21,738 nt of DNA. Source: a virus. The stretch is from positions 1 through 21,738 of the IMG/VR virus record IMGVR_UViG_3300035204_002457; one strand, written 5' to 3'. The notes under the pieces were generated by a model. It worked only from the letters and a program-made list of their open reading frames with translations, had not been told where the DNA came from and ran no database searches. Shown here piece after piece: positions 2,661 through 19,511 of this stretch (its first letter is position 1; each line of letters starts with the position of its first letter). A program made the translations under genes and the position numbers.

Positions 2661-4313
2661 ATGGGCGACGCTAGAGCAAAAATGGGGACTCCTGGCAGTG
2701 GGGCCAAGGGCGCAATGATGGGTACCGAGGGTGGCGGCGGAAGAGTTCTCTATAAGGCTGTAATCGTCGAGTATATAAATGACATGTCTATTTACACCCC
2801 GGAATACCTTCAAACTACATACGGAGTTGATGTAGAAGATCCTGAAAACGATGAAAACTCTGCTTTAAGAGTAAGCAATCCGCAATTTTTAAACGCATGT
2901 CCTAGAAACGCATGCGTGGTCCGTCCAGTGTCGCAAGGATTTGATAAACAGCAGCCCCCTATTTTAGCTTATCCATTTTTCCCGCCACACCTCTGTTTTC
3001 CAGCTAAACCTGGCGAACAAGTTTGGTTAATAACAGAGTCTCCAAGCGGAATCGGAGAGTTGCCACTGTGGATGTGCAGAGTTCCGAGTACATTACAAGT
3101 GGATGACTTGAATTTTACTCATGACGATAGAAAACTTTCTACGATTACTACTTTAACAACTAGCGAAAGGCTGGAGGCCCAGGGAGACGAAGCAAGTAAA
3201 ATACCAACCTTTCCTAATGGCACTGGTAATTCTGCAAGTGAAACAAGCTTAAAGCCAGCTCTTGGTAATAATGAAGAGACTGCTTTCGAAGATCAAGACA
3301 ACTCTTATGATTTAGTAGTTGCAAACTCTGTTTCATACACTAATTTTACGCCAGAAGAAGTTCCTCGACTTACGAAAAGACCTGGCGATTTGGTGTTTCA
3401 AGGGTCTAATAACACCACTATAATACTTGGCGAAGACAGAGGGTGGAACCCAGAAGAAGATCCAACTGCGTCTGAAAATAGTAACGCCACTGTTGGTTAT
3501 GAAGATTTGCCGGCATTTAAAGGCACTATCGATATAGTTGCCGGAAGGGGCAGGTTTTTTGCTGATGAATTAATTGCTGAAACTACTGCCGATGGTGCTG
3601 GTGACGATCCAGAAAACACTCAACCAAGATTAGTCGCTAACGAAAGAAAAGACGGCACGAGTTATATAGAAGTAGATAAAAATCCAGAAGTAAATGAATT
3701 AGATCCAGTTCCTCCAGAAGGTGATCCAGATTTTGTAAGAGATTGCTCTAGAGTTTATGTCTCCATGAAAACTAATGGAGACCAAAATTTTGGAATAAGC
3801 AACACAAGCGTTCCAGATTCTATGGCTACAGGATTTGAGACAGCCATTGAAGATGTAGATGAATCTCCATACGTTATATTAAAATCTGATGAAGTAAGAA
3901 TTATAGCAACTAAAAATGAAGACAACGACATTAATGGAGGCATCCGTATAGTCAAACAAGGAACTAAAGATGATGACTTAGCAACAATCACTTTACTTCC
4001 GGATGGAGTTATTCAAATTAGCGGAAGCAAAATTTATCTAGGAAGATCCACTGACGACGGCGGAGTTGGCGGCGGCCCGGGTGAAGGAGAGTCACAGCCA
4101 TACGTAAAATATCAAGAATTAGAAGATTTATGGAATGCGTTTATGGATGAAATGTCAGCTTTTTGTGACACTGTTTTAACTCATACAACCCCGGGGTATG
4201 GCGCGCCGTCACCGCAGCTTAACCAAGCTGCGACAGAACTTAAATCAAATATAGAGTCTACACATAAACCAGACATCGAAACTATACAATCAGAAAGAAT
4301 ATTCGGAGAATAA
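2661..4313 (+). CDS. gp5: Baseplate central spike protein, gp5-like, without lysozyme domain
   Basis: A 550-residue virion protein, expected as a trimer at the tip of the tail tube. After a Gly-rich leader (residues 1-27), residues about 28-140 look like the OB-fold of gp5/VgrG-type spikes, including PFFPPHLCFPAKPGEQVWLI at about 104-123. Residues about 140-420 are acidic, low in hydrophobic residues and unassigned. Residues about 424-465 have short alternating strands (GIRIVKQ, ITLLPDGVIQISGSKIYLGR) like the start of a triple-stranded beta-helix needle. The last 70 residues return to helix (YVKYQELEDLWNAFMDEM). T4 gp5 carries a lysozyme domain between the OB-fold and the needle; none of its motifs is visible here. 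GGAG at 2652-2655 serves the ATG. It lies just upstream of gp25 and gp6, as expected for the baseplate cluster. Confidence 0.7.
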   Translation: MGDARAKMGTPGSGAKGAMMGTEGGGGRVLYKAVIVEYINDMSIYTPEYLQTTYGVDVEDPENDENSALRVSNPQFLNACPRNACVVRPVSQGFDKQQPPILAYPFFPPHLCFPAKPGEQVWLITESPSGIGELPLWMCRVPSTLQVDDLNFTHDDRKLSTITTLTTSERLEAQGDEASKIPTFPNGTGNSASETSLKPALGNNEETAFEDQDNSYDLVVANSVSYTNFTPEEVPRLTKRPGDLVFQGSNNTTIILGEDRGWNPEEDPTASENSNATVGYEDLPAFKGTIDIVAGRGRFFADELIAETTADGAGDDPENTQPRLVANERKDGTSYIEVDKNPEVNELDPVPPEGDPDFVRDCSRVYVSMKTNGDQNFGISNTSVPDSMATGFETAIEDVDESPYVILKSDEVRIIATKNEDNDINGGIRIVKQGTKDDDLATITLLPDGVIQISGSKIYLGRSTDDGGVGGGPGEGESQPYVKYQELEDLWNAFMDEMSAFCDTVLTHTTPGYGAPSPQLNQAATELKSNIESTHKPDIETIQSERIFGE

Positions 4314-4314
4314 A

Positions 4315-4578
4315 ATGCCATTATCAGCAGCTTTATCATCACTAGAATCTGATATAGAATCAGCATATCAAACGTGCAAGTCCGACGGCTCAGAAGATGG
4401 AGCAGATTCAGATTCGGTAATTTCTCAATTAGCGCAAGATCTTGCAGACGCAGTACACGCCTATATGACTTCAGCGCTAGTAACAACTACTGTCACTGTT
4501 GATACCGGCCAAATGGACGCTGTTGGAGGTTCAACAATAACCGAGGGTTCTGGTGCAGGAACTGGAAATTTATCATAA
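4315..4578 (+). CDS. Small virion-like protein with one acidic helical unit
   Basis: This 87-residue protein begins with a helix (LSSLESDIESAYQTC), then a very acidic loop (SDGSEDGADSDS), a second helix (VISQLAQDLADAVHAYMTSA) and a beta strand (LVTTTVTVDTG), followed by a Gly/Ser/Thr-rich tail ending GTGNLS. The same unit occurs twice in the next gene. Proteins of this form (helix, LA-x-AI helix, 'SALV' strand, GSGTGTIS-type tail) are known to me near gp5/gp25 in marine T4-like phages, where they are annotated only as hypothetical or structural. GGAG at 4305-4308 gives a normal spacing to the ATG, and the gene starts two bases after the spike gene stops. Confidence 0.65.
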   Translation: MPLSAALSSLESDIESAYQTCKSDGSEDGADSDSVISQLAQDLADAVHAYMTSALVTTTVTVDTGQMDAVGGSTITEGSGAGTGNLS

Positions 4579-5073
4579 CGGAGAATTATAATGCCCCTAG
4601 CAGCAGGTCACCCAACTTTAAAAACCGATATTGAAGATGCTTATATAACTGCTAGAGACGACGGTTCCGAAGACGACGCCGATTCTGATGCTATAATTGC
4701 TCAGTTAGCAGAAGATATTGGCAATGCAGTTCATACCTACATGGAAACCGCCCTAGTTTCAACAACTGTGATAGTAGAGCCGGCTTCCAGTAATGCTTCT
4801 GGTTCTCCAGCTGCGACTGCTGTTCCAATAGCTTCTTATATAACTCCTGGTTCTGGAACCGGCACAGGCACAATTTCTTTTGAGGGCGGTGATGTAGACA
4901 CTCTGATTAGCGACATAGAAGCTGCTTTTATAACAGTTAGAGACGACGGCGCAGAAGATGAAGCCGATCCAGATGCAATTATTGCCACTTTAGCTACTGA
5001 TTTAAAAACAGCTATTGACACTTTTGCCCTAACTGCTTTAGTTGAAACTGACGTAACTGTTTTTCCAGGTCAA
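4327..5073 (+). repeat. Three diverged copies of a 60-residue coding unit across two genes
   Basis: The copies are at about 4327-4506, 4609-4788 and 4894-5073. Shared positions are DIE-x-A-(Y/F), DG-(S/A)-ED-x-AD-x-D, an I-x-x-LA-x-D helix and AL-V-x-T-x-V. The two copies in the second gene share the RDDG and IIA residues and are spaced by 285 bases. The first gene carries one unit plus its tail, so the second looks like a fused doublet of it. Confidence 0.8.
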
Positions 5074-5190
5074 ACGGTGTTTGGGTATATGGCTATTGCT
5101 GGTCCTGCTACAGTCCCTGTACCAGCGGTCAGCTTGGCAGGCACGGGATCAGGCGAAGGTGATCCCGGTAATAGCGAAGGTTTGTCATAA
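4591..5190 (+). CDS. Virion-like protein with two fused acidic helical units
   Basis: This 199-residue protein is two copies of the unit found alone in the preceding gene. Copy one covers residues about 7-66 (TDIEDAYITARDDGSEDDAD, then an IIAQLAEDIGNAVHTYM helix). Copy two covers about 102-161 (SDIEAAFITVRDDGAEDEAD, then IIATLATDLKTAIDTF). Each is followed by an Ala/Pro/Gly/Ser-rich linker of about 35 residues with GTGTGTIS or GTGSGEG. The protein has no Cys and is strongly acidic. GGAG at 4580-4583 precedes the ATG by 7 bases. Its place between the spike and gp25 suggests a small baseplate or spike-tip component. The acidic loop might bind cations, but it does not fit the canonical EF-hand spacing. 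Confidence 0.65.
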   Translation: MPLAAGHPTLKTDIEDAYITARDDGSEDDADSDAIIAQLAEDIGNAVHTYMETALVSTTVIVEPASSNASGSPAATAVPIASYITPGSGTGTGTISFEGGDVDTLISDIEAAFITVRDDGAEDEADPDAIIATLATDLKTAIDTFALTALVETDVTVFPGQTVFGYMAIAGPATVPVPAVSLAGTGSGEGDPGNSEGLS

Positions 5191-5238: not shown

Positions 5239-5286
5239 ATGATAGCAGGATATAAATCTTATGGCAGAACAGAACCAGAACTATAA
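5239..5286 (+). CDS. Possible 15-codon upstream reading frame overlapping gp25 start
   Basis: ATG 5239 has the best ribosome binding site in this gap, GAAGGA at 5224-5229, with a 9-base spacing. It encodes MIAGYKSYGRTEPEL and stops at 5284-5286, 23 bases inside gp25 in another frame. It could be a leader for translational coupling, a relic of an older gp25 N-terminus, or chance. Its YKSYGRT resembles the FQSVGET near the start of gp25 itself. The evidence is only positional. Confidence 0.3.
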   Translation: MIAGYKSYGRTEPEL

Positions 5287-5764
5287 AGTATATGATTTTC
5301 AATCCGTCGGCGAAACTTTAGAAGCCTATAGAGATAATAGAAGGTTTGGCACAGCGACTCCGGTACCAATTGGTATAAGAACTCCCATGGCTCTAGACAC
5401 GGGAGGAGGAGGGTTGTTTGTGATGCATACCGAAATGACCCAGCAAATAAAAGATAATTTTAAAAATCTTATTCTCACTAATCACGGCGATAGATTAGGA
5501 ATGTATGATTACGGAGCGAATCTTCAAGAACTCACTATGGAGCTTGGGTCTGAGTCTTTTGATACTGAAGCTATCAGAAGAATTAAAACGGCCGTTACAA
5601 AATATATGCCATATTTAAGTTTAGGTACTTTTGAGCCCGTCATTGATAGAGAAGCCACTACTGGCGGTATAACAAAAGTTGGTTTAAAAATTACTTATAC
5701 GATTCCATCGCTTGGAAGTGGTTTCCCACAACAAATGCAAGTATCACTATACGCGGGAGGATAA
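5261..5764 (+). CDS. gp25: Baseplate wedge protein gp25
   Basis: This 167-residue protein matches the gp25/gpW-like family, a conserved piece of contractile injection systems that helps join the baseplate wedge to the sheath. The family core is clear from about residue 60: IKDNFKNLILTNHGDRLGMY followed by DYGANLQEL, and a later alpha/beta region ending in the strands VGLKITYTIPS and MQVSLYAGG. T4 gp25 is 132 residues; the extra length here is an N-terminal arm (VYDFQSVGETLEAYRDNRRF, then PVPIGIRTPM), a form I associate with marine T4-like relatives. AGGA at 5247-5250 lies 10 bases before ATG 5261, a weaker site than the one feeding the upstream short frame. It is followed four bases later by gp6, the usual gene order. 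Confidence 0.92.
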   Translation: MAEQNQNYKVYDFQSVGETLEAYRDNRRFGTATPVPIGIRTPMALDTGGGGLFVMHTEMTQQIKDNFKNLILTNHGDRLGMYDYGANLQELTMELGSESFDTEAIRRIKTAVTKYMPYLSLGTFEPVIDREATTGGITKVGLKITYTIPSLGSGFPQQMQVSLYAGG

Positions 5765-5768
5765 TTAA

Positions 5769-7613
5769 ATGGCAACTTCAAATTCAGTATCTAAACTCAG
5801 CTCCAAGACTTATTTAGCAAAAGATTTTACTTCTTTTAGAGGCGAGCTAGTTACTTATGCAAAAAATTATTTTGCAAATCAGATTCAAGATTTTTCAGAA
5901 GCTGGTATTGGAGGAATGTTTGTTGAATTAGCGGCGTTTGTTGGTGATTCTATGTCATTTTATTTAGATCATCAGTTTAATGAACTGAATCCAGCAACTT
6001 CAGTTGAGATACGAAATATCGAAAGTCATGCTCGAAATGCCGGCGTTAAGATAACTGGTGCGGCGCCCGCGGTTGCTAAAGTTACTTTTTATATAGAAGT
6101 TCCAGCGACTACACTTTCCGATGGAACGTATTTTCCTGACACTAGCACGTTTCCAATAATAAAAGCCGGTACTGAATTAAGGTCTAACAGCGGCGGAATA
6201 TATTTCACGTCAACCGATGATGTAGATTTTGCTGAAGAGAGTACTGATGGTGTGCTATTATCTAGTTACTCTATTTCAAATACAGATAGTTCCGGAAATC
6301 CAACTCATTATATCGTTACAAAAGATCAAGATTGTATTTCTGGTCAGATAAAAAAAGACGAATTTAAGATAGGGACAGTTTTAAAGCCGTTTAGAAAAAT
6401 TACGTTAACCAGAACAGACGTGACTCAAATTATAAACGTAAAAGATCTTTCTGGAAACGAATACCATGAAGTGGAATCATTAACGCAAGACACCGTGTTC
6501 AAAAGAGTGCAAGTTTTAGATAACGAGCGCGATGATGTTTCTGACAACCTGGAAGTTATTCCTGCTCCATATCGATATATAACCCGCACAGACTTTACTA
6601 CACGATTAACTAAGCTCCAGTTTGGATCTGGTGATGCATCAACTACTGATGATGATATAATTCCCGATCCAAGTGATTTAGCTCTTCCATTATATGGAAA
6701 AAAAGTTTTTTCTAAATTTTCTTTAGACCCTAACAGCTTACTGAAAACGCACACACTTGGAATTTCTCCTGTTAACACTACTATATCTGTAGAGTATAGG
6801 CATGGTGGAGGATTAAGCCATAACGTACCTTCTGAGGGTATTAGAAATATATCTCAACTTAAAATAATGTTTCCAAAGCAGCCCACATCGGATATACAAG
6901 ATGCTGTTATTAAATCTTTAGATGTGAAAAATCAAAATCCTGCTTCCGGAGGATCTGCTACTTTGTCTTTAGAAGAATTAAGAAGCCTTATAAGTTCATC
7001 TCGAAATCAACAAAATAGAATAGTGACCCAGCAAGACTTGTTAGCTAGACTTTACACTTTGCCAGCAGTATTTGGCAGAGTATATAGAGCGGGTCTAAGG
7101 AAAAATGAAGAAAACCCACTATCTACAGAGCTTTACTTGTTGTGTAGAGACAAAGACGGCAAGCTACAAATTGCACCAGACGCCCTCAAGAAAAATCTAA
7201 GAGTCTATCTAAATGAATTTAGGCTTATATCAGACGCAATAGATATATTAGACGGCAGTGTCATAAATTACAAGATAAACTTTAGCATAATCTGCACACC
7301 TAGCTCTAATAAAAGCACTGTTTTAGCTAACGTAATAACCAGGATTAAAAAAGTTAGCGACCTAAAATTCTTTCAAATAGACCAGCCGGTAGTCGAAGCT
7401 GATGTTATAAATGCAATTATTAATACGCCTGGCGTTCTTTCAATGACATCCCTAGAGTTTAATAACGCGTTTGGTACAGTCGGTAGTTATACTTATTCTG
7501 ATATAGAGTTTGATATGACGGCAAATCTTTATAAGGGATTAATAATTGGAACACCAGGATCGATATTTGAGCTTAAGTATCCCGATTCGGATATTACTGG
7601 AACCGCGGAGTGA
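5769..7613 (+). CDS. gp6: Baseplate wedge protein gp6, baseplate-J-like
   Basis: This 614-residue protein is close in length to T4 gp6 (660). In T4, gp6 dimers form the continuous inner ring that holds the baseplate wedges together. The N-terminal region is typical of the family: KTYLAKDFTSFRGELVTYAK, then a conserved helix pair (GIGGMFVELAAFVGDSMSFY, LDHQFNELNPATSVEIRNI) and the HARNAGVKITGA turn. The middle part, about residues 120-350, is beta-rich. The later region contains QQDLLARLYTLPAVFGRVYR, the J-protein-like helical part with an 'LP..fG.v.ra' pattern, and closes with alternating strands and helices. GGAGGA at 5756-5761 is a strong ribosome binding site seven bases before the ATG. 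Confidence 0.9.
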   Translation: MATSNSVSKLSSKTYLAKDFTSFRGELVTYAKNYFANQIQDFSEAGIGGMFVELAAFVGDSMSFYLDHQFNELNPATSVEIRNIESHARNAGVKITGAAPAVAKVTFYIEVPATTLSDGTYFPDTSTFPIIKAGTELRSNSGGIYFTSTDDVDFAEESTDGVLLSSYSISNTDSSGNPTHYIVTKDQDCISGQIKKDEFKIGTVLKPFRKITLTRTDVTQIINVKDLSGNEYHEVESLTQDTVFKRVQVLDNERDDVSDNLEVIPAPYRYITRTDFTTRLTKLQFGSGDASTTDDDIIPDPSDLALPLYGKKVFSKFSLDPNSLLKTHTLGISPVNTTISVEYRHGGGLSHNVPSEGIRNISQLKIMFPKQPTSDIQDAVIKSLDVKNQNPASGGSATLSLEELRSLISSSRNQQNRIVTQQDLLARLYTLPAVFGRVYRAGLRKNEENPLSTELYLLCRDKDGKLQIAPDALKKNLRVYLNEFRLISDAIDILDGSVINYKINFSIICTPSSNKSTVLANVITRIKKVSDLKFFQIDQPVVEADVINAIINTPGVLSMTSLEFNNAFGTVGSYTYSDIEFDMTANLYKGLIIGTPGSIFELKYPDSDITGTAE

Positions 7614-7619
7614 TAAATC

Positions 7620-9185
7620 GTGTATTTGATATTAACTGCAAGTAAAGACACTTATATAACTAACAAAGTTATAGACAATACTTTTCGCGCTAAAGACGCA
7701 AATGTTGGAAGAGCGGGCACCATTGATATATTCAAGCTTTGGGACGAATCAACTTATCTTTCTGCCTCTACTAGAATAACTGCATCTGTTGGTGAAATTT
7801 CTAGAGGTCTTATAAAATTTGAATTTGACACAGTAAAAGCGCTAACAGCTTCTAATTTAGATTTAAACTCATCTAGATTCCAAGCTAGGCTTAGGCTTTT
7901 TGACATAATGGGCGGGCAAGCCACTCCTTCTAATTTTTACTTAATAACTTATCCGCTTTCTAAGTCTTTTGATGAGGGCGTTGGAAGAGACGTAGCGTCA
8001 TTCGGAGATTTAGATGTAGCTAATTTCATGACAGCGTCTGTAACGAATGGAACGCCGGCGATGTGGAATTTATCCGGAGCTAATGTTGGAGGGCTACTTG
8101 GTTCTGACGATCTAGATTATATTTCATCTGGCACCAGCGCATCTCCAGGGTTTTCAGCTTATATAGATTTTGGAGCTTCTCAATATTTTAAAAATGGAAA
8201 CGAAAATTTAGATATAGACATTACAAAATATGTAAGCGCGTCTATAGCTGGCCAGATTCCAGATTTCGGGCTGAGACTTTCATTCTCTGGTTCTGATTCT
8301 ACTGATCAAAAAACGAGGTTTGTAAAGAGATTTGCTTCTAGACATTCTTCTAATCTTTTGAAAGTACCACAGATACACGTTTCATGGGACGACAGCGTAG
8401 TAGATAATCACGAAGATTTTATTTTTGATACTAGCGGTTCTTTGTTTTTAAGAAATTATGTTAGAGGAGTTCCAACTAATTTAAAATCAGGATCTGATGC
8501 TAGCGCGATAACTGGCGATAATACCATTTTACTCAAGTTGCAAGTTCAAAGTTTTAATGAAATATTTACTGGATCTCAGCATACTGCAGGAACTGATGCG
8601 ACTCAAATAGCAGGTCTTTATTCTGCATCTTTTGCTATGTCTACTTATGATACCAGAACAGTAAATCAGTCTAATCATACTTTTGTGGATTTAATTGAAA
8701 AGAGCGGTTCAATAACTTTTAAAACATATTGGATCTCTGTAGATGAATCTATTGCTTACCACACTGGATCTTTAACGGTAAGGCCCTCGAGGAAAACTAC
8801 ATTTGAAAGGCAGCCGTCTGACTTGATGTTTAACTTCACTAATTTAGAGCCAGAATATAATAAAAATGACGATGTTTATCTAAATGTTTTTGTGGAAGAT
8901 TTGTCTACAGAAGACAAAGTTTATAAAATTCCATACTCAAAAAAGAGTATTAGCTTAAGTAAAGTTTACTACAGAATAAGAGAAGCTTCTACTGGCCAGA
9001 TAATGGTGCCGTTTGATGACTCTAGAGAAACTACAAAACTTTCTTCAGACAGCAATGGATTATCTTTTTATTTTAAAATGTCTAGCTTGCCAAAGGGCTT
9101 TGTTTATTATTTCGATTTGTTAGTAAAAGACTACGGAGAAAATAGAATATACAATGAGGCTAGCGGCAAATTTAAGGTAGTCTGA
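7620..9185 (+). CDS. Virion protein with DNRLRE-like N-terminal domain
   Basis: A 521-residue protein that starts with GTG; GGAG at 7607-7610 is 9 bases upstream. Residues about 1-270 resemble a DNRLRE-type beta-sandwich: ASKDTYITNKVID and NVGRAGTIDIFKLW at the start, SRGLIKFEFDTVKAL in the middle, then KRFASRH and VPQIHVSWDD at the end. The remaining 250 residues are beta-rich, perhaps Ig-like (FTNLEPEYNKNDDVYLNVFV). Ser/Gly/Thr are abundant and there are no Cys. It follows gp6 directly and overlaps the next large structural gene by one base, so it is probably an outer baseplate component. Many marine T4-like phages have a 'virion structural protein' of this size here; I know of no more exact name. 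Confidence 0.65.
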   Translation: MYLILTASKDTYITNKVIDNTFRAKDANVGRAGTIDIFKLWDESTYLSASTRITASVGEISRGLIKFEFDTVKALTASNLDLNSSRFQARLRLFDIMGGQATPSNFYLITYPLSKSFDEGVGRDVASFGDLDVANFMTASVTNGTPAMWNLSGANVGGLLGSDDLDYISSGTSASPGFSAYIDFGASQYFKNGNENLDIDITKYVSASIAGQIPDFGLRLSFSGSDSTDQKTRFVKRFASRHSSNLLKVPQIHVSWDDSVVDNHEDFIFDTSGSLFLRNYVRGVPTNLKSGSDASAITGDNTILLKLQVQSFNEIFTGSQHTAGTDATQIAGLYSASFAMSTYDTRTVNQSNHTFVDLIEKSGSITFKTYWISVDESIAYHTGSLTVRPSRKTTFERQPSDLMFNFTNLEPEYNKNDDVYLNVFVEDLSTEDKVYKIPYSKKSISLSKVYYRIREASTGQIMVPFDDSRETTKLSSDSNGLSFYFKMSSLPKGFVYYFDLLVKDYGENRIYNEASGKFKVV

Positions 9186-12661: not shown

Positions 12662-13608
12662 TGGCACATCCAGACTATTCAAAAGTAAGAATGACAGTAG
12701 TTCCAGCTCTAAGTGAGTCTTTTCCTTATATACAGGGGGCCTCTGTAAAATCTTCTTATTGGACCGCAAGAACGCTTCCAGCTTTGGGCAGAGGTCCAGA
12801 TAAACTATTTTTCAGCTCTTCTGCCGGTATATTCAATGTATCAGACAAACAATATTTCGACGATTGTATAGTTGGGAAAATTGCTGTTGTCGGCGAAAGC
12901 ATTCAAGCTGAAATGAGTTCTGAAGCTGGTAAACTAGAGACCAGATTTGCGTATGATTACATAGGATATACTTGGGGAATACCAGATAACGATCCAATAA
13001 GAACCGAGCCATATAGAGACAAAAATTATTTTAATCCAGTCCAGTATTTGATTAATTCTGCATCTATGACGTGGCCAGTGGTTTTAGAAGATCCTGCTGC
13101 TGTAGATACACTAGATTACAACGGCGTACTTGAACCGCTGACTATTAGAACTCGTGTTGGGATGTCCAGCACATTTGTTGGAGACCACTTAGATCCTGAG
13201 CCGCATTGCATTAGGGGCGTTTTTGCTGGTGGATATGCAGAAGAACCTTATCGTAGAAGCAGTTTGATAACTCATTATATAGAACCTGATGATTCCAATA
13301 GAAATTATCCGTTTAGCTATGTTGTAGATTGGAGGATATACGAGGGTTTTTCTCGACACGTTCCAGACTCTACATACACTGCTAACAACAACAAAAGAAT
13401 CAAACCGTTTCATGAAACAACTATAAATGAAATAGTTTTCGCAGAGATTTCCGATGTTCCGATGCAAAATTATTTTATCCATAACGTCACTTCTGCCTCT
13501 TTGGATAGTCGACCTTCTCTAGGAGCAAAAACTCTTGGGTGCGGGCACACTTATGAAAACTGTATTTTTGGTACAGACTCTGTGTCTTACGGAGGCTTGT
13601 TGAAATGA
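12661..13608 (+). CDS. Virion structural protein, possible gp8-position protein
   Basis: This protein has 315 residues from ATG 12661, which is coupled to the previous gene by TGATG; AGAGG at 12651-12655 is the likely ribosome binding site. A TTG at 12658 would add one residue. The sequence is beta-rich and aromatic, with no signal peptide, membrane segment or coiled coil. Distinctive stretches are the start AHPDYSKVRMTVVPALSESF, RFAYDYIGYTWGIPDNDP and the C-terminal GAKTLGCGHTYENCIFGTD. It ends in an ATGA overlap with the giant protein gene, so the two are translationally coupled and may assemble together. T4 gp8 (334 residues) occupies a similar place and size, but no sequence match is evident. 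Function is inferred from context only. Confidence 0.5.
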   Translation: MAHPDYSKVRMTVVPALSESFPYIQGASVKSSYWTARTLPALGRGPDKLFFSSSAGIFNVSDKQYFDDCIVGKIAVVGESIQAEMSSEAGKLETRFAYDYIGYTWGIPDNDPIRTEPYRDKNYFNPVQYLINSASMTWPVVLEDPAAVDTLDYNGVLEPLTIRTRVGMSSTFVGDHLDPEPHCIRGVFAGGYAEEPYRRSSLITHYIEPDDSNRNYPFSYVVDWRIYEGFSRHVPDSTYTANNNKRIKPFHETTINEIVFAEISDVPMQNYFIHNVTSASLDSRPSLGAKTLGCGHTYENCIFGTDSVSYGGLLK

Positions 13609-16600
13609 GAAAAGACTATAGGATAAAAATTCCGTATGACTTGCAACGAGCATTTGGGGATTACCACCAGCCGCAAAATTTAAAGCATTATTTTAGGCTG
13701 TATTCTGCTGATGATAACTCTATAGATTCGTCCCTTTCAAATATAGCAGAACCAATCGGGTACCCTATTGTCGGCAGTGATATTTCTACGCTTAGGACTT
13801 CTCCGTTTAATAAGCTTGTAAGATATACTAGCGACATAAAAGCTACAGATGGTTCTTATTATCGAGTAGCTTGGGGAGGTACTAACTATAACGCGTTTAG
13901 AAACGACGGGAATACTTTCACGATCGGAATGTGGGTCCAAATTCCAGTGATTGGAACTGGATCTCCAGATAATGAGCACGTAATTTTCAACAAGGTAAAA
14001 GCAGGTACCTTGGCTGGCAACTGGGGACAGGGAGGAATTGAAGAAAGCCAGAATTTAGGCGAGATGGCTATCACCTATATCAGCGCGGGAAACAACTTTA
14101 AATTTCAGTGGGTAGGAAAAAATCTTGCAGATAACAATTATTACATAATCAACGTTCCAACTTTTGATCTTAATCTTCTTGATAACGGACCATACAGGAG
14201 CGGTGACTGGATATATTTGGCTGTTACAATGAGCCATTCATTGCCAGTCTCTGCTAACACACTAATAGAAAGCATCGTAACTTTTTATGTCAATGGAAAA
14301 GATGCCACGGATAAATCTTCTATTACTGGAGGTGATGCAGTTGGTGGTATAAAAATCTCTCCAGATTTTCAAGCAGCACAAAATTATGGCGATATTTTGA
14401 TAGGCCGCGGCCTTGGAGATACGAACCCGCCTTCTAGTAATGATAATACTGCTTGTAGAGTATATGATTTAGCTATATGGGATGCAGCATTAGAACAACC
14501 AGCCATTGCTTCTATTTGGGAAAGATCAAAATTCTTTGAAGGCACCGGATTTTTAAGTCTACCTCCAAGAGTTCAGCTAAAAAAAGAAGTGTCTACCACG
14601 CCGGTTTATTTTGCTAGCAAAAACACCCCAATAGTTCAGGGACAAGATAGGCTCAAGGGGTTTGATGACAGCAGGACTATTACCTTTGAAACTGAGCGTA
14701 AAGTTAATCTACAATATCCTCTGGGTATACCATATGACGGCGGTTCACTTGGTACCGGAAGTTATGATCCCAATGATTTAACTTCTTGTTTATTAGCAAC
14801 CCCCAATAAATTACCAGACATATGGGCTCCAGGAATTAAAAACTTTGGAATTTTGCAAAATTACTATGGGCCATCGCAAATTAGCGAGGGCCAGCCAAGA
14901 TTCTTGCCGTTTAACGACGCTTTAGTGTTGCCAAATGGCGATGGCAATTTTTATGGTGGCACAACATCTATAGGCGGATTTAATTCAAAGCTCCGCGACA
15001 AGATCCAGGTAACAATAGAGCTTCCAATGAACGAGACAGCAACAGTCTCAAGATATTCAGCTAAATGGGATGCAATTGGGCCTACTACTCCAAACTTAGT
15101 GGAGGATCTAAAGCCTAACGATCCAACTGCAATTAATCCTCACTATGATGCTGAAGGAGAATTTAAAGAACAAAATTTAACTGGATTTCTATACTATAAT
15201 AAATCGCGTGGTGCTTGGGAGCAAAAGGGTATTGCTGACGTCGTTACTGGTCAGTATGTGAAAGCAATAGGATATATCAAGGGCGATCAAAATATTGAAG
15301 CAAACGGTGTTACCTTTACATTAATAAACGCTGATAATATACCGCAAGTTTTTATCTTTGATACTAGCGTAACTACTTGCGACGGCACTTGGGACGCTCC
15401 CGGAACAAAGCGGGTGCTTGTTGGACTATCTGGATTAGCTGCTGTAGATGTGGATAAAGCAGCTTCTAGAATGGCTAGCGCAATTAATGGAGCTGGCGTG
15501 GTAGAAGCTTCTGGAGATTTGGGTTGGTCTGCAACTTCAGGTGAATTTACTGCTAAATCTACAGTGACAATAATCCAAAGCGGCCCGGGCAAAGTCGGCA
15601 ATACTGTAATATCTCAGACTGGTGGGATGACCCTTACTAATTTTTCCGGAGGATCCACCGGTTATTCTTACGACGAAATAGCCCAAGAGCTTAAAGCCTC
15701 TAATTTAACTTTCGCTCAAGATTCTACTAGAAGAATTGTGGGGTCTAATTTAATTACTTCGGGCGTGTCGCACGTAATGAGGCTATTTTATCCTGGAGGT
15801 TGTACGGATGGACAAGGTCAATACGCAGCGGGTGGCCTTGAAGGAAATGGCGTAGACGTTGGAGTTTTCGATACACAACTAGCTGCCAACGTAGGCCATC
15901 CAATGTGCACCAATTATGGCCCTAACGCATATCAGTATTTTGCTACTGGCAGCCAAGTCTTAAAGATGAAAGACTATATTTCTGAGCCATTCTTGCTGGA
16001 AAAAGTTATATTAGAAATTCCAGACACTGTTGCAAGAAAAATATATGACTTCGAAGAAGAGCTAGACTCTCCCACAGCCGCTAGACCTCAAGACGATTAT
16101 GTCTTCTTCCTCATGAGACAAGCAAGAAGATACCCTGGTATGCCAGCTCAATTTTACGGTCCCAATGGCCAACCGCTATCTTCCGATAGCGAGAAAGATA
16201 AGATTAGGTTTGAAGTATCTTCTAGCGTAAGATATTTGATATGCTCTGGAAACGCTTGTTTTTATAACGATGAAAGAAGAGTACCGGGCAAAATACCATA
16301 CGATGAAGAAGAAAATCCAACTTTTTCTCCATGGGAACCCAGAAATTCGCCAGCTTTTGTTCATAATTTTTCCAGTTCGATTGGTACTGCTCACCAGCAC
16401 GTAATGGTCCGGTCAGGATCGATAATGCTTCCTATGATCCCAGCAGTCCCAAGCAGAAAAATGTTGGGGAATTATATATTGCCAACTTGGGATGGGTCTT
16501 CAGCGCTTTATATAACCCAGTCTGGGGGTGATGTCACCTTATTCCTCACCGGAAGCACGGTTGCTGGTGACCAGGGAGCTTGCTACCCAGGAACAGTTCA

Positions 16601-19511
16601 GGCTTTCTGGCCTGGTGGAACCTCAACGCTTCCACTTTCTGGCGCATTGAGCGGGAGTAGATCCGATGTAGTGACAGCAAATCTTCACTCTGCAAAAGAA
16701 GATACTACCGATCCTTATGGCTATCTTAGAAACACTGTGGGTGAAGCAACGTACAATGAAAGAACGTTTTATGAGATAAATTCTTATGTTGATCCTGGTT
16801 TTTCGAAGCTGAGCGCGCAAGCAATCGATTCAAGGACATTTAAGTTCTTTGGGGCTGGAGGGTCTAAAAAAGGTCTGAACGTCGCTACAGTCTCCGGACT
16901 TTCTGGGTCTTGGCAAGCCGGTTTTCCAGATGATCTTTCTGATTTAGACGCAGATTCACCTTATTTGCTATTTCCTGAAGATGAACTAGTTCTAGGTCTA
17001 GACGCCGCGCTTGGATGGACTGCTACTATGGCTTCTGGAATAACGGCCAAAGCTTTAAAGAGCGATAACATGAGCTACGTAGATCCTAAGCTCATTGTCG
17101 GGGCGAACAATTTAACTGGGTCACTTTTAAGACTTGAGCGCGGCCAACCGATGACTTTGCGGCTCTACGGGTCTTTAGTAAAAGATCAAGTAGAAGCACC
17201 ATCTTATCCAAAATCAGATATAACTCAACCAGATATCACAGATGTAATAATTGGTTCTCATACTTTAGATGAGTATGATATATCTTCTCTTATGGAAAAT
17301 TCTGGTTCTTATAGAGAGCGCCTCTTCACCGGATCTTTAACGAATCCACCGACCGGTCCTTCTAGAGTGGAAAATAAAGGAGAGGGAATTTATTCTTCTG
17401 CTGTCAATGCTTCTCCATTTTACTGGAGTGGAAATAGTATTGCCTGGCAACAAGGCGCCGGCGCCCATGTGGAAGTAATGCGTCCAGATTGGTCTACGGT
17501 TATAACGTGCTCTATTCCATCATCGCTTACTGGCTTTACTTACGACTCAACTCACCCAACCCCCGGCGCGCCACTCGATAAAATCTACATTAGATTTTGG
17601 CCAAATTTAGGCGGGATCCCGAACCCGCCTGCCCCCGGACCGCTCGGTATTTATTACAATTTTTATACAGTCCAAAATTGGGATCATATCACTGACGGCG
17701 GCGGTGGGCCGTATCAAATTCGGCCAGATGAAATCTTTATATGGCAGCCAAGCAAAACCGATATGCCCCCATGGGACGCTTACAGTGGAATTCCTGAAGT
17801 TTACTTTTCCCATTTTATATCTTATTTGATTAACGGGGCGGGATATTCATGGGGGATGAACTATTATATAAAATACGGAACTAGCGTTGGTGGAGTGTAC
17901 GGCGGTGGACTGCGCCTGCTCGGGATACTCGACTCAGGGCCGCTCCTCGCCGCCGTAGATGGCAACCAGTATAGCCCATACGACGGAATTCCAGGATTAA
18001 GCGCAACATATTCAGAATATGGCAAGGTGACAATAAGCGTCACTGGGGATCCAGTTGACGGAAACAAGGTGAATTTTATCGAAGGCAGGGTAGATGACAC
18101 TTATAACAATTCATCAACAAGGGTGACTCCCGGAATAGTAGCTGCGGCAGAAGTGACCGGCTCGCAGGGGACTCCTACTGCAGACTACCCCGCGTTATTT
18201 ACTGCCATTGATGGTGGAGCGCAGAGTTTGGGCGGCGGATTAGTTGAGCTCAATGCAGTTCGAGAAGTTGCAGCAACTACTTCTCGCGGAAATATGGGAG
18301 AATATGGTTCTTTCAATAGATTTTTAACTTTCCCGTGCAGCACAGAAAAATATTTTGATACAGCAGTTCCATTCTTAGAGGAAATATGGGCATGTCTCGA
18401 CAGAAAACCGCTAAAGTTTGATATATTGGATATATCCGGAACAGGGATCCCCGGCGGTTATGATAAATTTGAATTATTAATTTATGGTATAACGGTTGGA
18501 AAATATGCTCTGGGTACTGGACCAGGTGGAGATGGGACCGGCCTTTCGGATATTGGAAGTCAAGACCCATTTTCTGCAGATTGGTGGGCCGGATTCCCGT
18601 TTGAACCAAGGTATGCAGTCAGAAAAAATGACCAAGGTATGTCTCAATCGACAAGGAGAACTTTCGGTAGCCAGGCTGTTACTGATTCAGAGGGTCGTAT
18701 AGCTGCCGCGCTCTATTGGATAACTAACGATACTTATGCTGGCTGGGGGCAGGGATATACTCATACTGGCAGTATACAGCCCGCGGCAGTCAGCGGTAGC
18801 TTTGGTTGGGATTTCCAAGATTTAGTAGGGGGTCCAGGTACAACTATTGGTAAAAAGACTTCAACTTGGGGCAATGCTCAGATCGGTCTCGTTGCTACTA
18901 TGGATGAACAGACATTTGGTTTAAATCCTTCTTATTCAGATCTTGCAAAATCAAGCCTAAAAGTATTTTATGGGGCTGGCGACGGGCTTGGCAGTTTGGT
19001 AACTAACAGCCCAGAAGATTATTTGTATCCGACGTCAGAGCAATATGCTGGTATCGATGGTAAAGCAGATTCGAATGGATATTATCCAAACTATTATAAA
19101 ATCTTTAGAAGGTCTAGAAAACCAAGGGGCTGGAAGTATGGTCTATTAAACGCACTGCCACAGTACACCAACATTACTTTTAGATCTGACCATTATGGTC
19201 AATTTAGAGATATGCTGGAGATTCGACCCTACGGAGTGTTTACTTGGGCAAACAGCAGCCTAGAGAATAATTATGACTTAGGGCCTGTAGTGGTGGGATT
19301 TCAAGAGCCAATGTTCTTACAGTCAAACCCAGGTATTATAGTGACAAAAGATCCAGTATCGACTAGATCAGGAAACTTATCTATGTTTGCAACTTCATCC
19401 TTGCCGTTTTTCGATGAATGTGATGGAGTTTATGGAAAATATCCATTTGGAAGAGATAGGCCTGAAGAAATTAAGACTGAAGAGTTTGAAATCTACGTAG
19501 AAACTACATAA
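13605..19511 (+). CDS. Giant LamG-containing virion protein, mosaic
   Basis: A 1968-residue protein, the largest here. GGAGG at 13591-13595 is 9 bases before the ATG. A LamG-like domain occupies about residues 100-300 (FTIGMWVQIPV, SGDWIYLAVTMS, CRVYDLAIWDAALEQPAIAS). Residues about 552-690 form an apparent inserted beta-domain (GVTFTLINADNIPQVFIFDT ... AINGAG ... STVTIIQSGPGKVGN), splitting a region that continues with SYDEIAQELKASNLTF. A possible relative of it lies at about 1300-1545 (YLINGAG ... GKVTISVTGDPVDGN) in a GC-rich stretch. The C-terminal 400 residues are another conserved-looking core, with RKPRGWKYGLLNALPQ and SDHYGQFRDMLEIRPYG. No transmembrane segment is seen. I infer an outer baseplate or receptor-binding role from the LamG domain and the position upstream of the tail fibre. 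Confidence 0.6.
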   Translation: MRKDYRIKIPYDLQRAFGDYHQPQNLKHYFRLYSADDNSIDSSLSNIAEPIGYPIVGSDISTLRTSPFNKLVRYTSDIKATDGSYYRVAWGGTNYNAFRNDGNTFTIGMWVQIPVIGTGSPDNEHVIFNKVKAGTLAGNWGQGGIEESQNLGEMAITYISAGNNFKFQWVGKNLADNNYYIINVPTFDLNLLDNGPYRSGDWIYLAVTMSHSLPVSANTLIESIVTFYVNGKDATDKSSITGGDAVGGIKISPDFQAAQNYGDILIGRGLGDTNPPSSNDNTACRVYDLAIWDAALEQPAIASIWERSKFFEGTGFLSLPPRVQLKKEVSTTPVYFASKNTPIVQGQDRLKGFDDSRTITFETERKVNLQYPLGIPYDGGSLGTGSYDPNDLTSCLLATPNKLPDIWAPGIKNFGILQNYYGPSQISEGQPRFLPFNDALVLPNGDGNFYGGTTSIGGFNSKLRDKIQVTIELPMNETATVSRYSAKWDAIGPTTPNLVEDLKPNDPTAINPHYDAEGEFKEQNLTGFLYYNKSRGAWEQKGIADVVTGQYVKAIGYIKGDQNIEANGVTFTLINADNIPQVFIFDTSVTTCDGTWDAPGTKRVLVGLSGLAAVDVDKAASRMASAINGAGVVEASGDLGWSATSGEFTAKSTVTIIQSGPGKVGNTVISQTGGMTLTNFSGGSTGYSYDEIAQELKASNLTFAQDSTRRIVGSNLITSGVSHVMRLFYPGGCTDGQGQYAAGGLEGNGVDVGVFDTQLAANVGHPMCTNYGPNAYQYFATGSQVLKMKDYISEPFLLEKVILEIPDTVARKIYDFEEELDSPTAARPQDDYVFFLMRQARRYPGMPAQFYGPNGQPLSSDSEKDKIRFEVSSSVRYLICSGNACFYNDERRVPGKIPYDEEENPTFSPWEPRNSPAFVHNFSSSIGTAHQHVMVRSGSIMLPMIPAVPSRKMLGNYILPTWDGSSALYITQSGGDVTLFLTGSTVAGDQGACYPGTVQAFWPGGTSTLPLSGALSGSRSDVVTANLHSAKEDTTDPYGYLRNTVGEATYNERTFYEINSYVDPGFSKLSAQAIDSRTFKFFGAGGSKKGLNVATVSGLSGSWQAGFPDDLSDLDADSPYLLFPEDELVLGLDAALGWTATMASGITAKALKSDNMSYVDPKLIVGANNLTGSLLRLERGQPMTLRLYGSLVKDQVEAPSYPKSDITQPDITDVIIGSHTLDEYDISSLMENSGSYRERLFTGSLTNPPTGPSRVENKGEGIYSSAVNASPFYWSGNSIAWQQGAGAHVEVMRPDWSTVITCSIPSSLTGFTYDSTHPTPGAPLDKIYIRFWPNLGGIPNPPAPGPLGIYYNFYTVQNWDHITDGGGGPYQIRPDEIFIWQPSKTDMPPWDAYSGIPEVYFSHFISYLINGAGYSWGMNYYIKYGTSVGGVYGGGLRLLGILDSGPLLAAVDGNQYSPYDGIPGLSATYSEYGKVTISVTGDPVDGNKVNFIEGRVDDTYNNSSTRVTPGIVAAAEVTGSQGTPTADYPALFTAIDGGAQSLGGGLVELNAVREVAATTSRGNMGEYGSFNRFLTFPCSTEKYFDTAVPFLEEIWACLDRKPLKFDILDISGTGIPGGYDKFELLIYGITVGKYALGTGPGGDGTGLSDIGSQDPFSADWWAGFPFEPRYAVRKNDQGMSQSTRRTFGSQAVTDSEGRIAAALYWITNDTYAGWGQGYTHTGSIQPAAVSGSFGWDFQDLVGGPGTTIGKKTSTWGNAQIGLVATMDEQTFGLNPSYSDLAKSSLKVFYGAGDGLGSLVTNSPEDYLYPTSEQYAGIDGKADSNGYYPNYYKIFRRSRKPRGWKYGLLNALPQYTNITFRSDHYGQFRDMLEIRPYGVFTWANSSLENNYDLGPVVVGFQEPMFLQSNPGIIVTKDPVSTRSGNLSMFATSSLPFFDECDGVYGKYPFGRDRPEEIKTEEFEIYVETT
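17440..18240 (+). other. GC-rich island inside the giant virion gene
   Basis: Hand counts of 60-base rows here give about 53% (17581), 50% (17701), 40% (17761), 65% (17881), 55% (17941) and 63% (18121) GC. Ordinary rows nearby and elsewhere give about 30-32% (15121, 7801). The island codes for Gly/Pro-rich sequence (PNPPAPGPLG, GGVYGGGLRLLG) at residues about 1280-1545 and stays in frame. It may be a recombined, externally acquired module. Smaller rises are at 15361 (57%) and 16501-16620 (53-57%). Confidence 0.6.

Follow-up and report, generated by a model that had tools for sequence, protein, structure and literature searches.

Small genes behind a probable phage central spike carry one unit or three of a family that may cap the spike

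The central spikes of the contractile tails of Milano and A-1(L) are C3 symmetric (PMC10811340, PMC10966104). A single PAAR protein covers the spike and meets its trimeric prism with pseudo-trimeric symmetry (PMC10715212), and self-tipped spikes form the point from their own C-terminus with a metal-binding histidine motif (PMC10966104, PMC10715212). In T6SS, a PIPY/DUF4150 tip and a DUF2169 chaperone are encoded by spike-linked genes without canonical PAAR motifs (PMC11883445).

Here we describe a locus in which a separate small gene follows a probable spike gene. The window, that is, the whole stretch of DNA analysed, is a 21.7-kb virus record (21,738 nucleotides) of an uncultured contractile-tailed phage. 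Its features around the slot between the spike gene and the gp25-like gene are these:

2661..4313, plus strand: probable central spike, gp5/VgrG/gpV-like, 550 aa (AlphaFold2 model, VIA-align matches)
4101..4310, plus strand: C-terminal tail of the spike, a helix hairpin with SERIFGE as last residues (helices at residues 484-507 and 518-541 in the model)
4315..4578, plus strand: gene A, a single-unit gene of 87 aa consisting of unit A, the first unit (ORF, unit alignment, Q.D signature)
4591..5190, plus strand: gene B, two fused units, 199 aa (ORF, alignment, profile)
4591..4890, plus strand: unit B1, the second unit (unit profile matches residues 1-96 of B)
4891..5187, plus strand: unit B2, the third unit, with a GY[ML]...PVP signature (profile matches residues 97-194 of B)
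5261..5764, plus strand: gp25-like baseplate wedge protein, which closes the slot on its downstream side (GPW_gp25 and phrog_43 matches)
5769..7613, plus strand: gp6/J-like baseplate wedge protein (phrog_219, E 1.1e-5)

Genes A and B are co-directional, and A begins directly after the 550-aa gene. Like PAAR/gp5.4 spike-tip proteins (PF05488), the units are encoded with a spike that is presumably trimeric, and we propose that they cap it. In contrast to PAAR, they are predicted to consist of a helix hairpin and a beta hairpin, give no profile match, lack an HxH pair, contain few cysteines and come in a dose of one or three. The unit protein would work like PAAR but, judged by profile, is not PAAR. 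The self-tipped spikes of P2, phi92, Mu, R2 pyocin and Milano are likewise central spikes of contractile tails, whereas here a helix hairpin comes after the predicted shaft, and a separate small gene lies behind the spike gene. The PIPY/DUF4150 and DUF2169 tip system shares genetic linkage to the spike gene, but the units have no Pfam match to DUF4150 or DUF2169.

The product of 5261-5764 matches phrog_43 (baseplate wedge) at E 3.5e-5 and GPW_gp25 (PF04965) at E 1.9e-4. As the latter score, 21.6 bits, is below the curated cut-off of 27.2, we call this protein gp25-like only. In Flavobacterium phage immuto, a protein about 33% identical to the gp6-like product of 5769-7613 bears a baseplate wedge annotation. 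Farther along in the tail region lies a 1968-aa ORF (13605-19511), judged by its place a possible large tail fibre or adhesin.

The product of 2661-4313 is likely a gp5/VgrG-type spike, because contractile systems return repeatedly as matches of the front part of its model. This AlphaFold2 model (pLDDT 81.6, pTM 0.73, 57 rows) shows an N-terminal beta domain, a beta-rich shaft and then the predicted C-terminal helix hairpin. With residues 22-413, VIA-align recovered eight spike or baseplate chains of contractile systems at Z 5.8-6.8, values below 8 being middling on the program's own scale. The partners are the PlPVC1 central spike, the PVC, P1, E217, Pa193 and Bas63 baseplates, VgrG1 of Pseudomonas protegens and the cell-puncturing protein Orf41 of phage SN; in the five entries titled as baseplates, the matched chain is presumably the spike. 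Other rows, at residues about 23-160, were small proteins such as EutN and IF-1, and the many rows at residues 481-550 were unrelated helix hairpins that we set aside. Foldseek of the model returned no match below E 1, the spike profile none in the PDB up to E 0.1, and the gene none that was meaningful in Pfam, PHROG or NCBIfam.

The sequence-only reading had described a single-unit gene followed by a two-unit gene. Both ORFs are present, and their units are 45-56% identical in amino acids (A-B1 56%, A-B2 45%, B1-B2 48%). Homology among the units, also claimed there, is borne out by a codon-level alignment and by local alignment scores of 230 (A-B1), 144 (A-B2) and 185 (B1-B2), with z of 31, 19 and 25; these lie far above all of 1000 shuffles (means 32-34, highest 63). 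Identical sites at codon positions 1/2/3 number 56/68/36 of 87 for A-B1, 40/51/35 of 80 for A-B2 and 59/55/38 of 93 for B1-B2. Across the pairs, second positions agree in 59-78% of codons and third positions in only 41-44%. Conservation of the protein at so low an agreement of third positions argues for an old duplication, indicating that the window units are old copies kept under protein-level constraint.

An acidic loop was said to be common to the units. Within a 75-unit alignment, its exact form (DG[SA]ED.AD.D) occurs in all three units of the window but is absent from the remaining 72, and 25 of the 75 carry two acidic residues or fewer in this region. By this alignment it is a window-specific form of a variable loop. 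Cation binding by the loop, which had been suggested, was abandoned since the loop is not conserved across the 75 units.

We built a family model and counted units per locus among relatives, which were reached via their neighbours: the gp6-like and gp25-like proteins, three spike profiles (one of which had 80 of its 349 relatives taken in) and one unit profile. The last gave six loci, of which L027, L029, L030 and L031 were read, L028 being the contig of L004 and L032 resembling L031 around the unit. With loci of identical last 150 spike residues counted once, 149 distinct loci remained; as they were fetched mostly through the spike, the count would miss units lying elsewhere. Members of the unit family both match the profile and lie between the spike and the gp25-like gene.

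By this profile count of the spike-to-gp25 slot, 79 of the 149 loci bear units. A single unit is found in 64, a 1+2 arrangement in nine (the window, L019, L027, L084, L093, L094, L099, L118 and L170), three fused units in five (L042, L057, L066, L192 and L193) and a 1+1 arrangement in one, while 70 have none (four of these have no gp25 on the record). Exactly three units are therefore present in 14 loci (nine 1+2 and five fused). The 64 singles include shortened and extended forms, such as those of L106 (64 aa) and L058 (166 aa), and four of them (L005, L137, L140 and L148) were counted with a relaxed start, the automatic start having fallen inside the spike. Spikes that share as little as about 30% identity with the window's still have units beside them. 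The 1+1 locus, L050 (7507-7830 and 7861-8337), is a counter-case to a rule of one or three. Its two units are sisters in the unit tree (99/95), the second bearing a 40-aa N-terminal extension, and because they are sisters the pair probably reflects a separate duplication.

A spike ending in F/Y-G-E accompanies 74 of 79 unit loci as compared with 15 of 66 loci without a detected unit (145 loci with gp25). A Fisher test of this association, which ignores kinship, gives p 9e-20, and a kinship-aware test, with three pairs only, was not significant; for both reasons we treat the association as supporting evidence only. In three loci (L207, L208 and L209) the spike has an FGE tail and gp25 starts 82 bases behind it, too close for a slot gene to fit between.

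The three units of a three-unit phage are not equivalent. On a unit tree of 75 rows and 94 columns, which is poorly resolved and whose bootstrap had not settled, the label 'single' requires 3 changes, as few as in none of 500 shuffles. Third units group across phages (2 changes). The labels 'first' and 'second' require 5 and 6 changes, a poor separation. Within the tree, B2 forms a clade with the third units of L041 and L019 (support 100/94), B1 groups with the second unit of L066 (99/93), and unit A falls among first and second units from three-unit phages (91/88, not starred). Short signatures also mark position. The third-unit signature [VI].G[YF][MLQ] is present in 12 of 14 third units, those of L057 and L170 lacking it. 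Nine of the 10 third units in the tree set carry it, as do 3 of the 4 later units; of the 20 first or second units and 45 singles in the tree set, none does. A weaker first-unit signature, Q.D, is borne by 10 of 14 first units: 6 of the 10 in the tree set, window unit A included, and all 4 later ones. Elsewhere it occurs in none of 20 second or third units and in 1 of 45 singles. Together with the tree, the signatures indicate that the three units are non-equivalent and that third units are orthologous across phages. Since third units cluster with one another and not with their own neighbours, the three-unit state appears older than the split of the phages compared. The set may have arisen only once or twice, in which case the 14 loci are not 14 events. 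Clustering by gene, which had been held to speak against duplication, is thus seen for third units, where it argues against a recent duplication and not against duplication as such.

One-unit and three-unit sets occur beside nearly the same kind of spike. The window spike falls inside a clade of single-unit phages (L004/L011/L034, SH-aLRT 99), and spike trees imply 4 changes between three units and other states, 3 of them forced by starred branches. The window is 78% identical in the spike and 71% in gp25 to L033, the same contig as L004; its identities to L041 are 61% (gene B), 53% (spike) and 46% (gp25). Because the window spike belongs with single-unit phages while the units carry the signatures of other three-unit phages, the simplest account is that the three-unit set, or gene B at the least, came in ready-made and was not freshly duplicated. 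Unit A shares 59% identity both with the single unit of L033 and with the first unit of L019, 55% with the first unit of L041, and 40-47% with the singles of L011, L034 and L035. Given this equal closeness and the unstarred place of unit A in the tree, unit A might be a single unit native to the window, with gene B alone gained; the Q.D signature speaks for unit A as the first unit of a set. Tandem duplication followed by fusion, the origin first proposed, agrees with the homology and with the 1, 1+2 and three-fused forms of relatives, but a duplication in the lineage of the window itself is not supported. Exchange extends to other slot occupants: L003 has a gp25 72% and a gp6 74% identical to those of the window, yet a different slot protein, and L012, whose gp25 is 71% identical to the window's, has another slot protein and another spike tail.

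The natural three-unit fusion of L066 (280 aa) was used for fold prediction. AlphaFold2 gave pLDDT 83.4 and pTM 0.77 from an alignment of 17 rows, in which the rows of A fell on unit 2 and unit 1 rested on three rows. Each third of the model comprises two helices and two or three strands, and in this one natural triple the Gly-rich tail is the last beta strand. The unit is thus predicted to be a helix hairpin plus a beta hairpin, three of which pack compactly in one chain, and a pTM of 0.77 for tandem units suggests a defined packing. VIA-align of the model returned small, 8-stranded closed beta barrels (residues about 46-280) and helix bundles (residues about 1-234), all middling, consistent with one barrel and one bundle built jointly by three units. 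Its top row, a designed nanocage (Z 7.9, residues 4-141, every row being below 8), and the best Foldseek match in the PDB, urate oxidase (E 0.074, TM 0.12), were rejected. The only Foldseek match at E <=0.001 was BFVD A0A8S5RUZ0, a viral protein of 207 aa (E 6.1e-8, probability 1.00). It resembles the L066 model with TM 0.77 by target length, but differs in sequence (20% identity, rmsd 5.9) and is uncharacterised, with no name or function given.

Searches with the sequences themselves place the units outside the families consulted. By tblastn against INPHARED phages, gene B, the units of L016 and L031, the L066 triple, the window spike and the L211 slot protein found no match, and gene B as a single sequence found no relative in viral_contigs. 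Matches of units in PHROGs, Pfam and NCBIfam never bettered E 0.021, fell in families unrelated to one another and were dismissed as chance; the best PDB profile match, the effector SemD (E 0.054, 26 positions only), was rejected. Scans of slot proteins and spikes gave no convincing Pfam, NCBIfam or PHROGs match. The units seem to form a baseplate-side family to which Pfam, NCBIfam, PHROGs and the PDB offer no convincing counterpart. In the titles and abstract openings searched, mostly from outside subscription journals and bioRxiv, no spike-tip set of one or three was described.

PAAR (PF05488) gave no match up to E 1 for A, B, L042, L066, L057, L016 or the second gene of L050. It was likewise absent from all 20 related records, five of them of 242-293 kb, with a control positive in 3 of 14 genomes; these records may be fragments, and at least three (L040, L060 and L064) carry other slot proteins. 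A DUF4280 search found nothing in the same number of records (0/20) and its control was silent too, so that it has no weight. With no HxH pair in any of 75 units and cysteine in 18 of them, there is no evident sign of a metal-tipped point like that of other spikes; a metal site could possibly be formed between chains.

In the reading we prefer, the small slot protein would dock on the C-terminal (distal) end of a trimeric central spike as a cap or adaptor. A single-unit gene would give a homotrimer on the spike. From a three-unit set, each unit would be supplied once and in a fixed place, making a pseudo-threefold heterotrimer ring in which the third unit, with its GY...PVP loop, may have a special role. 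As part of the virion, the slot protein would ride into the host with the spike. For such a spike-associated cap or adaptor, homotrimeric if single and pseudo-threefold if three units are present, we put the chances at slightly less than even. The idea of three units on a trimeric spike, already raised by the sequence-only reading, fits the count of one or three, the position signatures and the compact model of the natural triple best, and we hold it as the best hypothesis, believed almost as readily as doubted.

Proximity to the spike gene and variation with the spike tail are also predicted if the slot protein is a dedicated assembly chaperone that folds or protects the C-terminal helix hairpin and stays outside the virion. 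The units do adjoin the spike gene, are associated with its tail and are small and mostly acidic (median pI 4.5 over 75 units), and T6SS has spike-tip chaperones of the DUF2169 family (PMC11883445). However, a count of one or three with position-specific third units is less natural for a transient helper, and the compact three-unit model suggests a stable assembly, so that we regard a chaperone as unlikely. The gp25-like and gp6-like genes downstream, and the hexameric hub named earlier as another possible site, would suit an accessory of the hub or wedge that takes six- or three-fold places round the hub, or between spike and gp25, and not at the tip. This placement is more improbable than a chaperone: the occupant of the slot tends to change along with the C-terminal end of the spike, and in L003 a gp25 and gp6 72-74% identical to those of the window accompany a different slot protein.

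Whether the number three has any mechanistic meaning is a further question. Plain redundant duplication, with three as an accident inherited from one ancestor, agrees with third units that point to one or few origins and with L050, whose 1+1 state shows that other counts occur. Against it, three units are kept in 14 loci over diverged spikes, including a window spike whose nearest relatives have single units, and first and third units retain their own signatures; we rate redundancy about as low as an accessory of the hub or wedge. Copy number would also be irrelevant if the slot protein were effector-like cargo on the spike, exchanged for its action in the host. Spike-mounted effectors are known in T6SS, which provides a precedent, and slot occupants are diverse and swap between phages. 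We nevertheless consider cargo the least probable of these explanations, as no convincing enzyme or toxin family was matched, units persist beside spikes of only about 30% identity to that of the window, and the dose of one or three is left unexplained.

If a cap or adaptor is indeed what the slot encodes, the phages offer a testable natural experiment that bears on the construction of symmetric spike tips and on the reasons for which asymmetry arises. Place and profile allow members of the family to be annotated in many uncultured phages, and the family is a candidate tip for phages in which PAAR was not found. We also entertain, with distinctly more doubt than the cap or adaptor itself, a broader scenario: large phages in which PAAR was not found would cap the spike with a small homotrimer, which a diversified three-unit set, as 1+2 genes or one fused gene, would have replaced by horizontal exchange. 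If that were true, a C3 ring would have turned into an ordered pseudo-C3 heterotrimer. The tip of an injection machine would then exist in nature in graded forms, with a homotrimer at one end and a single-chain pseudo-trimer at the other, and would have converged on the pseudo-trimeric base of PAAR.

Other slot proteins were seen in the survey. One kind, of about 195 aa, occupies L003 (104-709), L012 (527-1120), L024 (359-934) and L083 (2317-2901), and three of these four end in ...FTGAYL.G.F.GP..HV..L. L012, L024 and L083 also have a different spike tail, and the spike of L003 is not on the contig. An iterated profile that included its own new members matched the N-terminal parts of the proteins of L003 (4e-10), L012 (3e-6) and L083 (0.004). 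The notion that these four are doublets was rejected, the strict profile, whose table excludes L003 and L024, finding no unit in L012 or L083. The slot proteins of L211 (4485-4964) and L098 (7392-7826) end in ...TIPWS and ...SIPWS, respectively, and presumably resemble small spike-side proteins of other phages. In L159 (4905-5192) and L109 (2593-2895), a second slot gene with a common cysteine-rich segment (CxxC, CxKCGC) stands behind a slot protein rich in apolar residues. L107 encodes a 441-aa protein (7328-8653) with a weak BclA_C match (E 0.0041), whose opening helical segment looks like the N-terminal half of a unit. Slot proteins of 166-177 aa in L058-L061 and L039/L040 carry GFS.GSP..H.V..PFGDA near the end, and the unit profile recognises the C-terminal half of the L058 and L061 proteins.
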